Shown: piece by piece, positions 5,378 through 8,891 of the stretch | Layout: each line of letters opens with the position of its first letter | Numbering within the stretch: the stretch's first letter is position 1 | Origin: an uncultured Cohaesibacter sp. | GTDB lineage: Bacteria; Pseudomonadota; Alphaproteobacteria; Rhizobiales; Cohaesibacteraceae | NCBI RefSeq assembly: GCF_963664735.1 | Contig: NZ_OY761553.1 | Location: forward strand, 3,345,001-3,409,000 | Direction of reading: 5' to 3' | Length of the DNA: 64,000 bases | The notes under the pieces: model-generated | What the model was told of the DNA's origin: nothing | Databases searched by the model: none | Seen by the model: the letters and a program-made list of their open reading frames with translations, nothing else | Program-made: the position numbers and the translations under genes

Positions 5378-5995
5378 ATGGAACGGACACTAGTGCTGGC
5401 ACGTCATGGCCAGAGCGATTGGAATCTGAAAAACCTTTTCACCGGCTGGAAAGACCCTGGTCTTACCGAACAGGGCACGGCTGAAGCCATTGCTGCTGGC
5501 AAGAAGCTCAACGATATGGGCATGAAATTCGACGTTGCCTTTACCTCTGATCTGCAGCGCGCCCAGAAAACCTGCCAGCACATCCTCGATGGCGTTGGTC
5601 AGTCCGACCTGACCACCTACCGCGATCTCGCTCTGAACGAACGTGATTATGGCGATCTGTCAGGCCTTAACAAAGACGACGCTCGCAAGAAATGGGGCGA
5701 CGAGCAGGTTCACATCTGGCGCCGTTCTTACGACGTTCCTCCTCCGGGTGGTGAAAGCCTGAAAGATACCGCTGCACGCACCCTGCCTTACTTCATCACC
5801 GACATTCTGCCACAGGTTATGGCTGGCAAGTCTGTTCTTTGTGCAGCACACGGTAACTCCCTGCGCTCCATCGTGATGGTTCTGGACCGTCTGACCAAGG
5901 AAGAAATCCTTGAAGTCAATCTGGGCACCGGTGTTCCGATCGTTTACAAATTCAACGCTGACACCACTATCGCTTCCAAGGAAATCCTTGGCTAA
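5378..5995 (+). CDS. gpmA: 2,3-bisphosphoglycerate-dependent phosphoglycerate mutase
   Basis: This glycolytic mutase interconverts 3- and 2-phosphoglycerate through a phosphohistidine. The 205-residue protein begins with [12 protein letters not shown], which carries the catalytic histidine. It has the [14 protein letters not shown] block and the second active-site histidine in [12 protein letters not shown]. It lacks the long insert of the 250-residue enterobacterial form, as is usual in alphaproteobacteria. Start choice: the frame is open from a GTG at 5369, but an AAGGAG sequence at 5364-5369 is 8 bases before the ATG at 5378. The terminator at 6035-6061 follows; that terminator is duplicated at the far end of the next module. 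Confidence 0.96.
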
Positions 5996-6024
5996 TTGGT
6001 GCAATGTTGCAGCTGTTTTTCAGC

Positions 6025-6054
6025 AGAATTTTCGAAAGGGTGGCTTCGGTCACC
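6025..6054 (+). repeat. Direct repeat, left copy (30 bp, overlaps gpmA terminator)
   Basis: These 30 bases recur without any mismatch at 7870-7899, 1845 bases to the right. The repeat covers AGAATTTTCG and almost the whole stem-loop of the gpmA terminator. The bases on either side of the two copies differ. A perfect repeat of this length around an AT-rich two-gene block is the footprint expected of an insertion or of site-specific integration into the terminator. Confidence 0.9.
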
Positions 6055-6061
6055 CTTTTTT
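6035..6061 (+). terminator. gpmA Rho-independent terminator with UUCG tetraloop
   Basis: The stem AAAGGGTGGC pairs with GTCACCCTTT (one G-T wobble) around a TTCG loop, and a run of six T follows. It lies 40 bases after the gpmA stop codon and is the natural terminator of that gene. Confidence 0.92.
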
Positions 6062-6128
6062 ATGGCGTGCATTTTCTAATTAAGTATACTATTTCGATAT
6101 ATTTAACGTTGATATCGAGTACATCGTC

Positions 6129-7673
6129 ATGCCTGCTCTCAAAAGCGAACCGAAGTTATCTAAATTTAGTCAATCTGATAAATCAGTTTCAAACGGCCCC
6201 TGTGCCGTGGCAAGGCCAACATCAGAGCTTGTAATTGGTATGGTTGGGGCTGTCGGAGCTGGGGTTACAAAAACGGCAAATGAATTAAAAGGAAAACTTG
6301 AAACAGATTACGATTATCACGTCGAAATAATTAGAGTAAGCGACATAATTTCATCAATGAAGACTTTAGATTCTACTTTAGATAGTACATCCAGAATAAC
6401 TCAACTTCAAAAACTCGGAACTGAATTACGCAATGATTTTGGTGAAGATATTTTAATTTCAAAAGCAATTGAGAAAATTGCAATCTCAAGAGATGTTAAT
6501 AAAGGGTATGATCATTCCAAGACCGTTCCTCAAGCAATAAATAGAAGAATTGCAACCATAATTGATTCTATTAAGCACCCAGAAGAAAGCAAAAAGCTTT
6601 CTGATGTCTATGGAGACGTTTACTGGCAATTTACTGTTTTTGCTCCCGAGACGGTAAGAGAAAACAGGCTTAGAAACATAGGTGTAGATAAAGGAAAACT
6701 GCACGGAATATTCACAACAGATACTAATGATAAAGACAATCACGGTCAAAAAGTAAGTGATACAGCATTATTATCAAATTTTTTTGTTAGAAATGATGGG
6801 CAGAATACCCACCGTTTAGAAAGTGTTTTGGACAGGTTTCTTGAAATTCTCTTTAATGTTTCCACTCATACTCCAACCCAGCAAGAAACAGGAATGCTCA
6901 CAGCAGTAACTGCGGCCAGCAAATCTGCTTGCCTATCGCGACAAGTTGGCGCTGCTCTATATTCAAATAAAAATGAGCTATTGAGCACTGGTTGTAATGA
7001 TGCTCCGCGTTACGGTGGGGGTTTGTATAAAACAGAAGATAATGATTGTGATCACAGATGTTATAAATGGCAATCGCAAGAATGCCATAATGATAGACAT
7101 AAAAAGGAACTATACTCTCAAATTTTTGAAAAAATTAACACTTTTGAGAATAAGCTTGATCAAGAAAAAATTACTTCAGCGCTGAAGAAAACTCCGATTA
7201 AAGGTCTCATTGAGTACAGTCGTGCTGTGCATGCTGAAATGGAAGCAATTCTCTCTGTTGCTAGAACAGGTAAATTGGGAATAGTCGGTGGTAGTTTATA
7301 TTCGACAACCTACCCCTGTCATAATTGTGCGAGACATATTGTTGCTAGTGGCATAGAGAACGTTTATTACATTGAGCCATATGCAAAAAGCTTGGCAATC
7401 GATTTGCATAGTGATGCGATTTCAGTATCTGAAAATGACACAGGCAAGGTTGCATTTCTTCAATATGAAGGAGTCGGACCGCGCAGTATGTTAAAATTGT
7501 TCGGGCATGGATTAAAACGTAAAGATGAAGGAAAAGCTATTCAAAGTCAGAAAAAAACTGCTAATCCAGTCTTTGCCCCTTCAATTGACGGATTCACAAC
7601 GCACGAAATTCGGGTTATAAAGCAGCTAAAAGATTTAAATCTCCCTTCAGAAGAAAGCGCCGCCAATGTCTGA
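6129..7673 (+). CDS. AvcD-type anti-phage deoxycytidine-nucleotide deaminase
   Basis: The 514-residue protein joins an N-terminal nucleotide-kinase-like domain (about residues 33-240) to a C-terminal zinc deaminase domain (about 250-460). The deaminase signatures are complete: HAE with H368 and E370, and PCHNC with C397 and C400. A second cysteine/histidine cluster (C307, H309, C311, C319, H320, H324) may bind structural zinc. This domain order is that of AvcD and related phage-defence dCTP/dCMP deaminases, which deplete deoxycytidine nucleotides during infection. The P-loop is altered: G40-A-V-G-A-G45 is followed by V46, with lysine only at 48. The gene is far more AT-rich than its neighbours, uses codons such as AAA, ATT and TTA heavily, and is bracketed by the 30-bp repeat, so recent transfer is likely. 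The start at 6129 has only a weak ribosome binding site. Confidence 0.88.
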   Translation: MPALKSEPKLSKFSQSDKSVSNGPCAVARPTSELVIGMVGAVGAGVTKTANELKGKLETDYDYHVEIIRVSDIISSMKTLDSTLDSTSRITQLQKLGTELRNDFGEDILISKAIEKIAISRDVNKGYDHSKTVPQAINRRIATIIDSIKHPEESKKLSDVYGDVYWQFTVFAPETVRENRLRNIGVDKGKLHGIFTTDTNDKDNHGQKVSDTALLSNFFVRNDGQNTHRLESVLDRFLEILFNVSTHTPTQQETGMLTAVTAASKSACLSRQVGAALYSNKNELLSTGCNDAPRYGGGLYKTEDNDCDHRCYKWQSQECHNDRHKKELYSQIFEKINTFENKLDQEKITSALKKTPIKGLIEYSRAVHAEMEAILSVARTGKLGIVGGSLYSTTYPCHNCARHIVASGIENVYYIEPYAKSLAIDLHSDAISVSENDTGKVAFLQYEGVGPRSMLKLFGHGLKRKDEGKAIQSQKKTANPVFAPSIDGFTTHEIRVIKQLKDLNLPSEESAANV

Positions 7674-7857
7674 ATTCAACCGAAATCAGAAATCTTTCTT
7701 TTTTGTATTTGATAGCTCAAATCAGAGAGAACCAAATCCTGGCAAACAGGTTGACCAAACTATGCCAGGCTATCTCTCAACGGAAAGAATTTCTCATGAG
7801 GCGTCAGAAGAGGCCAAGCAGAGATTACTGTCTCGTCTAGAGAAATTTGGCTGTTAG
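7666..7857 (+). CDS. Small protein overlapping the AvcD-type deaminase gene, unknown function
   Basis: This 63-codon frame starts 8 bases before the end of the deaminase gene, a spacing typical of translational coupling, and ends 22 bases before the distal terminator. The product begins with a polar stretch, has a short hydrophobic patch (FFFVF) at residues 11-15, and ends with an amphipathic helix-like segment (EASEEAKQRLLSRLEKFGC). I recognise no family. It shares the AT-rich composition and lies inside the repeat-bounded module, so it travelled with the deaminase. A role as partner, inhibitor or regulator is only an inference from position. It could also be a chance frame. Confidence 0.5.
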   Translation: MSEFNRNQKSFFFVFDSSNQREPNPGKQVDQTMPGYLSTERISHEASEEAKQRLLSRLEKFGC

Positions 7858-7869
7858 AGAAATTGTATA

Positions 7870-7899
7870 AGAATTTTCGAAAGGGTGGCTTCGGTCACC
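7870..7899 (+). repeat. Direct repeat, right copy (30 bp)
   Basis: This copy is identical over 30 bases to 6025-6054 and closes the accessory module on its right side, between the small gene and the convergent Ada-like gene. Confidence 0.9.
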
Positions 7900-7906
7900 T
7901 TTTTTT
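7880..7906 (+). terminator. Second copy of the UUCG terminator, closing the module
   Basis: This is the same stem-loop as at 6035, with seven T after it. One C of the right arm is missing here, so one base pair of the stem becomes a G-T wobble. It would end transcription of the deaminase operon and may also stop readthrough towards the convergent gene. Confidence 0.88.
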
Positions 7907-7919
7907 GTGCCAAGCTAGT

Positions 7920-8891
7920 CTAGCTGTTTATCTTGATCAGGCCATCTTCTGAGGCGGTTTGCGCGCTATGGCCCTGTTCCCAGCCAAGAATGGCGCGTTT
8001 GCGTGTCAGGCCCCAGTGATAGCCGCAGATCGAACCTCCCTTACCCAGCACGCGATGGCAGGGGACCACAAAGGAAATCGGATTTTTCCCGACCGCAGTT
8101 CCTACGGCCCGTGATGCTTTGGGCTTGCCCATATGCTGGGCGATGGCCGAGTAGGTCGTCATGGAGCCGATAGGAATCCTCAGCAGCGTTTCCCAGACAC
8201 GAACTTCGAAGTCGGTTCCAATGAGCGTAATCCGCAAGGGCTGATCTTGCTGCCAAGCTTCAGGATTGAATATCTTTAAGGCAAAAGGCCGGGTCGCTTC
8301 GCCATTTTGTTGATAGGAAGCATTCGGCCACCGGCGGCACATATCGTCAAACGCGGCCTGTTCTTCGCCTTCATCAGCAAAGGCAAGGCCGGCCAGCCCA
8401 TGGTCAGTGATCATGATCAACGCCTTGCCGAATGGGCTGGGATGAAATCCATATTGAATGGTAAGTCCGGCACCCTTGGCTTTATATGCACCGGGAGTAA
8501 TTGCCTCATGGGTGACAAAGAGGTCATGCAGACGGGACGAGCCTGACAAGCCCACTTCAAATGCGGTTTCCATTACGGAAGCGGATTGATCCAATATTTT
8601 CTTGGCATTATCCAATGTTACAGCCTGAACAAACCCTTTTGGTGACAACCCGCCTGTCCATCTCGTGAACAATCGCTGCAAATGATGCGGAGACAATTCC
8701 ATATGATCGGAAAGACGCTCAAGACTTGGCTGTTCACGCCAGTGATCTGTCAAATATTCGATAGAACGCCGAATGGTGTCATAATCTCGCAAGGCTTCTT
8801 GCCTGTCTTCTGGGCTCATTTGCACATCCGTCAAAACGGGGCAATCACCATCCAGTGTCAGGCTTGTAAGGGGCGTTTGTTTCTGCGTCAT
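7920..8891 (-). CDS. Methylated-DNA-protein cysteine methyltransferase fused to AraC-type DNA-binding domain (Ada-like)
   Basis: The 323-residue protein has an AraC-type helix-turn-helix region at about residues 35-135 and an O6-alkylguanine-DNA alkyltransferase domain at about 145-310. The active-site motif is VPCHRVLG with C278 as the methyl acceptor. It should remove methyl or ethyl groups from O6-guanine and probably also regulates transcription. It lacks the N-terminal zinc/phosphotriester domain of E. coli Ada, which is the classic activation switch, so any regulation must work differently. It converges on the deaminase module and is divergent from nth, another DNA repair gene. Confidence 0.9.
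   Translation of the reverse strand: MTQKQTPLTSLTLDGDCPVLTDVQMSPEDRQEALRDYDTIRRSIEYLTDHWREQPSLERLSDHMELSPHHLQRLFTRWTGGLSPKGFVQAVTLDNAKKILDQSASVMETAFEVGLSGSSRLHDLFVTHEAITPGAYKAKGAGLTIQYGFHPSPFGKALIMITDHGLAGLAFADEGEEQAAFDDMCRRWPNASYQQNGEATRPFALKIFNPEAWQQDQPLRITLIGTDFEVRVWETLLRIPIGSMTTYSAIAQHMGKPKASRAVGTAVGKNPISFVVPCHRVLGKGGSICGYHWGLTRKRAILGWEQGHSAQTASEDGLIKINS

Follow-up and report, generated by a model that had tools for sequence, protein, structure and literature searches.

Insertion with long target duplication has been described for restriction-modification genes (Nobusato et al. 2000, Gene 259:99, as cited in PMC1643837, PMC3874152 and PMC4978471). An H. pylori example is shown in a genome tool paper (PMC1643837), another example is mentioned in PMC4978471, and the duplication is put at the 'order of 100 bp' in PMC3874152, with no enzyme named in those parts of the citing sources that deal with such insertions. 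The analysis presented here concerns a window of 64,000 nucleotides from an uncultured Cohaesibacter sp. (assembly GCF_963664735.1, contig NZ_OY761553.1, positions 3,345,001 to 3,409,000 of the forward strand; coordinates below count from the first base of the window), in which the gene of an anti-phage dCTP deaminase and a small overlapping open reading frame (ORF) lie in the terminator between gpmA and an ada-like gene. The deaminase block is an insertion into this terminator. The reading we favour, with moderate confidence, is that a horizontally acquired two-gene unit inserted in the terminator shared by gpmA and ada in the long-target-duplication pattern, with a copying event as the tentative joining step. 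As in the restriction-modification insertions, to the extent that the citing sources describe them, a small defence unit without its own transposase is present in one genome and absent from close relatives that have kept the site, and it is flanked by long direct duplications of variable length. The locus differs from them in its cargo, a dCTP deaminase and its small partner instead of a restriction-modification system, in the hosts of such units, which are mostly Alphaproteobacteria, and in the presence of terminators among the targets. The duplication of 37-40 nt is also shorter than the figure given for the restriction-modification cases (PMC3874152). No account of dCTP deaminases inserted with long target duplication was found in the open-access literature (titles and abstract openings, among the matches listed). 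The features of the locus are:

5381..5995, plus strand: gpmA (phosphoglycerate mutase), the upstream host gene, its protein 84-99 % identical to the best gpmA matches in 16 congeners
6025..6064, plus strand: left copy of the terminator shared by gpmA and ada and now duplicated, a UUCG hairpin followed by a T-run, identified by repeat comparison and folding, and present as one copy in congeners where found
6065..6128, plus strand: 64-nt AT-rich leader of the inserted unit, containing by reading of the sequence an inverted repeat TCGATAT...ATATCGA
6129..7673, plus strand: anti-phage dCTP deaminase, 514 aa, identified by NF041025, PADLOC dCTPase, PF00383 and motif residues
7666..7857, plus strand: small partner ORF, 63 aa, overlapping the deaminase end, with N-terminal QKSFFF and an ORF at the same place in other deaminase loci
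7870..7909, plus strand: right terminator copy and end of the inserted unit, with 3' flank TTTTTTTGTGCC, identified by repeat comparison and congener flanks
7920..8891, minus strand: ada-like methyltransferase gene, the convergent host neighbour, which adjoins gpmA in 16 congener loci

The two copies of the direct repeat agree in 38 of 40 bases and the first 30 are exact (6025-6054 = 7870-7899), as a first-pass annotation of the sequence had reported for the 30-base stretch. Self-comparison of the whole window found no second repeat pair (25-300 nt, at least 80 % and at least 32 bits, spacing 0.7-8 kb), and the exact 21-mer core occurs at these two places only in the 4.9-Mb genome, with two more sites at 2 or 3 mismatches. 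A terminator of the same type is located elsewhere in this genome (G000:C1:4832558-4832578, locus L004), with 3 mismatches in 21 bases. For both repeat copies a UUCG hairpin is predicted (-16.5 and -13.8 kcal/mol as RNA) with a T-run behind it, and the DNA folding z-score of the left copy is -4.6. A generic terminator scan listed neither copy, probably because the T-run is consumed by A-T pairs of the stem. The gpmA and ada genes are convergent, so the original terminator sat between both, and each gene now retains one copy.

The inserted unit is 1845 bp long and consists of the deaminase gene, the small partner ORF and one terminator copy. These two genes, which overlap by 8 nt, are the only convincing ones between the repeats; 64 nt separate the left repeat from the deaminase start codon and 12 nt separate the small-ORF stop from the right repeat. 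The unit has a GC content of 37.8 % against 53 % and 52 % in the flanks, in agreement with its earlier description as an AT-rich block. Sequence self-comparison found no inverted repeat at the two unit ends, and none of the 15 hits to the tyrosine-recombinase family PF00589 in the genome, 12 of which exceed the cut-off, falls in the window; transposase and serine-recombinase families were not searched. The absence of an integrase and of terminal inverted repeats, also part of the first-pass annotation, is therefore upheld.

Comparison of the gpmA-to-ada interval in relatives, which the same annotation had proposed as a check, revealed an empty site with a single terminator copy where one was found. 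A gpmA match of some kind was obtained in all 61 genomes searched, and a full match in 16 of the 17 congeners, G016 having distant ones only. The ada-like gene lies directly behind gpmA, with no insert and a gap of at most about 315 nt, in every one of these 16 congeners. Ten of the 16 loci hold a single terminator with up to 4 mismatches to the 21-mer, and the other six hold none at that limit. The distance from the gpmA stop to ada is 91-118 nt in 8/16 anchorable congener loci, as against 131 nt here once the 1845 nt are subtracted, and a search of the 19 other genomes in the family found no deaminase (E 1e-20). Integration at the terminator with a regenerated copy, as originally suggested, agrees with these insert-free congeners and with a second terminator insertion (L197, below). 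Neither vertical inheritance of the deaminase with two repeats nor two unrelated terminators in relatives, either of which would have told against that suggestion, was seen.

The flanks of the repeats give information on where the unit entered. The sequence 3' of the right copy (TTTTTTTGTGCC) resembles that found natively in several congeners, and the left copy is preceded by the gpmA-side sequence; the insertion point therefore lies inside the repeat. The stretch 5' of the hairpin, AGAATTTTC, is unlike the congeners aligned, and the identity between the copies runs about 10 bases 5' of the hairpin. Because AGAATTTTC is not shared with the aligned congeners, the second copy most likely derives from this very site or a near-identical one and not from another terminator of the same type. 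That the two copies are unrelated terminators, alike by chance or through convergent use of a common type, has a negligible probability: the similar UUCG-type terminator at 4832558, three mismatches away in 21 bases, speaks for it, but the identity here extends into sequence that is unconserved between congeners, and the congeners are insert-free.

Deaminase loci other than the window proved informative as to how widely this arrangement recurs. They number 131, made up of 15 (L036-L050), 80 (L051-L130, the best 80 of 396 confirmed deaminase matches), 19 (L131-L150 without the window's own L137) and 17 (L196-L212). L202 is apparently the same as L092, the pairs L038/L130, L087/L088 and L090/L091 look nearly duplicate, and several loci are cut by contig ends. 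Each locus was compared with itself at 25 nt/80 %/32 bits, at 22 nt/78 %/30 bits (phylum sample) or at 22 nt/75 %/30 bits with word size 7. Six more distinct insertions with repeats enclosing the deaminase were found, making seven with the window. In L037 (genome G361) the repeat is 75 nt at 85 % identity and represents the 3' end of a long gene; in L045 (G425) it is 103 nt at 95 %, again a gene 3' end; and in L047 (G139) it is 42 nt at 100 %, the 5' start of a 231-aa gene. Nitrosospira multiformis (L060) has a repeat of 179 nt at 92 % covering the 3' end of a gene that is capsid-like by reading, plus a 66-nt terminator piece at 80 %. The repeat of Chenggangzhangella (L092) is 26 nt at 92 % (24 identical) at the 3' end of tRNA-Val, and that of L197 (G886) is 69 nt at 94 %, a GC-rich terminator-like hairpin with the deaminase stop 7 nt away. 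The labels capsid-like, FabG-like, gluQRS-like and toxin-antitoxin-like were given by eye, without a family search.

Between 26 and about 245 nt are duplicated, and no sequence common to the duplications was seen. Three of the seven include a terminator (window, L060 and L197) and the rest are two gene 3' ends, a gene start and a tRNA 3' end. The idea of a terminator as docking site thus receives only partial support, four of the seven insertions having other targets. Where gene ends or starts are duplicated (L045, L037, L060 and L047) the host gene is kept whole. Six codons have changed in the L037 repeat, from the first TTG/CTG codon onward, and by reading all the changes are synonymous; both versions of this gene end were therefore once coding. 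Hairpin-driven recombination as a common cause, including the attC-like single-strand mechanism first considered, was rejected since the duplications of L037, L045, L047 and L092 fold no better than shuffles (that of L060 was folded over 135 nt only).

Empty and filled states of one site can be compared in other genera also. Congeners G911, G951 and G823 hold one 69-nt block between the genes that flank the deaminase unit in G886 (L197). The hydrolase-side copy of G886 is identical to G911 in 69/69 positions and the other copy in 65/69, and the flank beside one copy resembles G951. In the related genome G856 (L218 617-1400) a toxin-antitoxin-like small pair is found between a terminator copy and the hydrolase gene, with no second copy seen; as this pair stands where G886 has the deaminase, the interval takes in different small modules. 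The G425 site is empty in its congener G796, which has one copy and then directly the next gene. The two 103-nt copies of G425 agree mutually in 98 positions, and in 97 and 96 with the empty-site sequence. G798 has the same insertion as G425 with its spare copy shortened by an internal deletion, which indicates that spare copies can decay. Neither the deaminase nor the same right neighbour is present in G797, G800 and G348 within the stretch examined. In G795 (L189 3312-4132) the gene end where G425 carries the deaminase is occupied by some 820 nt of different sequence, which includes a 54-nt tandem repeat. For L047 no empty site was found, its matches besides itself being 33-45 % identical. 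The nearest relative of L037, L175 (54 %), lacks the deaminase and has a gluQRS-like gene about 80 nt behind, and its gene end has diverged too far for the limits of the duplication to be recognised.

The differences between copies bear on the possibility that homologous recombination alone produced these loci. A donor with the cassette beside the same gene end, entering by a one-sided or Campbell-like exchange, would leave two versions of the target, and this would suit the several cases in which copies differ (85-95 %), synonymously in L037, as well as G886, with one flank like G951 and one copy identical to G911. Such exchange accounts for spread at one site among relatives, however, and leaves the initial arrival at a new site unexplained. 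The window copies are moreover identical over their first 30 bases, including the 5' part unshared with the aligned congeners, and no congener searched has the deaminase. We regard this as an unlikely explanation by itself.

A copying-type capture, or template switching, could have provided the joining step, and we put this forward tentatively. Chromosomal DNA synthesis would switch to the incoming cassette DNA, copy the cassette, and then return to the chromosome tens to hundreds of bases upstream of its exit point, which would duplicate the stretch between. At gpmA/ada 37-40 bp of target would have been duplicated in this way, such that both neighbours and the new operon would each keep a terminator. 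Afterwards the unit might spread within its lineage by homologous recombination of the flanks, and the spare copy would decay. Gene ends and terminators could be the observed sites since a duplication there would leave the neighbours intact; harmless landings would be selected and recognition of a hairpin would not be required.

Transposases leave a short fixed duplication and inverted ends, and an att-type recombinase leaves a more uniform core. Capture of the copying or recombination type is favoured over a transposase because the duplication length varies, there are no inverted ends and no enzyme is found. The terminal inverted repeats and short fixed duplication of a DDE transposon or insertion sequence are likewise missing here, the duplication being 37-40 nt. 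Tn7 inserts at attTn7, in the terminator of glmS, with a 5-bp duplication, terminal repeats and tns genes. It resembles the present case in that it enters the region of an intrinsic terminator downstream of a core gene, and its other features named above are not seen here. Integron cassettes carry an attC site with a GTTRRRY core. As here, each cassette has one or two genes and one hairpin site; unlike them, the unit has no integrase, is not part of an array, and by reading shows no GTTRRRY in 6025-6064 or 7870-7909. Integrative islands at tRNA and gene 3' ends (Islander, PMC4383910) are comparable in that, as described in that source, the target is regenerated on one side and a displaced copy is left on the other. 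They differ from the present case in that the unit of the window contains no tyrosine integrase and that a gene start and plain terminators are among the duplicated targets.

The main rival to the reading favoured here is related to such islands. A tyrosine recombinase acting in trans would make the terminator copies attL and attR and the cassette a non-autonomous integrative element. One locus relevant to this is L092 5597-7924 of Chenggangzhangella methanolivorans, a 2.3-kb element at tRNA-Val with a deaminase and a small ORF, which looks like an integrase-less mini-island. An identical 20-nt motif, TGACGGTATTTTTGACGGTA, is located near both of its inner ends, and G1092, apparently this very genome, contains no further site at up to 3 mismatches. 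Such a motif is what one would expect if a non-autonomous element of this kind had arm sites for a recombinase. Integrative islands in general are marked by repeats at the 3' ends of genes and at tRNA ends, the 15 PF00589 hits in the genome of the window, 12 of them over the cut-off, could act in trans, and the synonymously differing gene-end versions of L037 would fit an att site from another host. On the other hand no comparable inner repeats were listed in the window, where only 12 nt lie between the last stop codon and the right repeat, neither the unit nor the window contains a tyrosine recombinase gene, the duplications vary in both length and sequence, and four of the seven fold no better than shuffles. 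A recombinase in trans is therefore a serious alternative to long target duplication by copying, though one that we think has a rather low probability.

The statistical strength of the pattern was evaluated at thresholds of at least 25 nt, 80 % and 36 bits for both the bracketing counts and the control. The deaminase was bracketed in 5 of the 51 loci with 1.5-kb flanks and in 0 of 80 control loci (Fisher p = 0.008, same thresholds), a value that is only indicative because the 80 controls represent five proteins and the 51 loci include L202, the likely duplicate of L092. A number of enclosing or neighbouring repeats were set aside. Enclosing pairs in L036, L198, L209 and L210 (25-37 nt, 75-88 %) are weak and were taken as chance, and many pairs at 25 nt/80 %/32 bits were dropped as they do not enclose the deaminase. 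In L071, a Tepidamorphus metagenome-assembled genome (MAG), a duplicated gene 3' end of 101 nt at 92 % (971-1071 / 5527-5627) brackets 4.5 kb beside the deaminase, and it is possible that this is an insertion with long target duplication of other cargo.

Several observations weigh against insertion with long target duplication by copying as a general account of these loci. Among the 80 long loci, 4 were flagged as bracketed when 1.16 would be expected by random placement. The four include L073, with a palindromic repeat of 32 nt at 88 %, and the repeat-rich locus L115, neither of which was counted as an insertion, so the long-locus set alone is without a clear excess. None of the 19 deaminase loci of the phylum sample is bracketed, and most deaminase loci have no flanking repeat. 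Nor did an initial local-alignment survey show enrichment, with 3/81 loci (window included) against 10/254 shifted windows at a score of at least 16.5; it covered 590 nt upstream and 1200 nt downstream and missed L060, whose left copy is further out, and was replaced by self-comparison of whole loci. L092, at its tRNA gene, suggests that in one member at least an integrase was involved. Finally, the unit end lies 106, 159 and 170 nt past the last gene in L047, L060 and L092.

This last observation would also suit the view that the units are remnants of larger integrative elements that have lost their integrase and other cargo. The decay of larger integrative elements is common, L092 is at a tRNA gene and L060 is behind a gene that by reading is capsid-like, and the 106-170 nt behind the last gene in L047, L060 and L092 could be other sequence left from such an element. 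The distance from the last stop codon to the unit end is, however, 12 nt in the window, 7 nt in L197, 6 nt in L045 (G425) and about 31-45 nt in L037. Right boundaries within 6-45 nt of the last stop in four independent cases are tidy for four separate deletions, and G796 and G911 show the plain empty state beside the filled one. An origin as remnants is thus improbable. If the units did enter with long target duplication, the presence of the mark in about 5 % of deaminase loci would fit the decay of spare copies as in G798.

The deaminase matches the NCBIfam model NF041025 'anti-phage dCTP deaminase' with 452 bits (cut-off 400) and the PADLOC dCTPase model with 515 bits (E 9e-155), so that its initial description as AvcD-type was right at the level of the family. 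It also matches PF00383. The zinc deaminase domain occupies the C-terminal half, and the N-terminal half is P-loop-like by reading, with no Pfam hit there. The zinc deaminase motifs H-A-E (H368 A369 E370) and P-C-x-x-C (P396 C397 C400) are invariant in the seven sequences aligned (alignment A1). In the genome collection the closest relatives, from Stappia, Tateyamaria, Tabrizicola, Roseovarius and Tepidamorphus, share about 60 % identity. No close copy turned up in the plasmid and phage collections, where 55 and 2 records matched with protein identities below 60 %, and at the DNA level none of the 38 plasmid records covers 80 % of the query, 10 % being covered among the matches listed. Relatives at 36-39 % identity are found in 5-kb records labelled bacteriophage (MT839973.1 and MT838710.1) and on plasmids of some 4.6 kb from Klebsiella and E. 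coli. These small records could be carriers of the cassette. AvcID, in the part of PMC10511110 that bears on it, has a deaminase of the same family together with an RNA antitoxin, AvcI; here the deaminase is preceded by only 64 nt and followed by a gene for a small protein. Those 64 nt are the only room for an upstream RNA of the AvcI type, and a scan of 5900-8000 found no Rfam family at gathering score, its two matches both lying below it (AvcI was not searched as such).

The small ORF at 7666-7857 has no family hit in Pfam, PADLOC and NCBIfam searches. Its position is nevertheless a recurring one. An ORF of 45-100 aa starting -60 to +80 nt from the deaminase stop was found in 76 of 83 loci (79 of L051-L130, where L113 is without a stop codon, together with the window, L036, L037 and L038). 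A Q-x-x-h-x-h motif occurs within the N-terminal 30 residues of 64 of these 76 small ORFs, where 500 shuffles gave 5.7 on average and 13 at most, and the stricter Q[LMF]x[LMF]x[LF] in 47 of the 76 compared with a shuffle mean of 0.2. The small ORF of the window (QKSFFF) fits the looser form only. Among distant deaminases outside the 83, by reading, L045 and L047 have a downstream small ORF without the motif and L197 has none. The motif resembles the bacterial sliding-clamp binding hexapeptide, as in QLSLPL of Hda. The small ORF may be an undescribed partner of the deaminase defence family; in literature on deaminases with a small ORF and on clamp motifs in phage defence, no account of this partner was found in titles and abstract openings among the matches listed. 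It is conceivable, although rather doubtful, that small defence units such as restriction-modification and dCTP-deaminase systems form a broad enzyme-less mobile class, entering gene ends and terminators by one host copying process, namely replication template switching, that would duplicate the target and thereby keep the neighbours functional, and to which the clamp-motif partner would provide a tie through the replication fork.

The finding extends insertion with long target duplication to another defence family and to other hosts, and it bears on how single defence systems without a transposase or integrase move between genomes. Pairs of empty and filled sites are now available in three genera, and terminators emerge as acceptable and not exclusive targets. 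Decay of one spare copy may explain why the mark is present in only about one of 20 deaminase loci. The sites are defined, and this makes the mechanism by which these small units are acquired directly testable.

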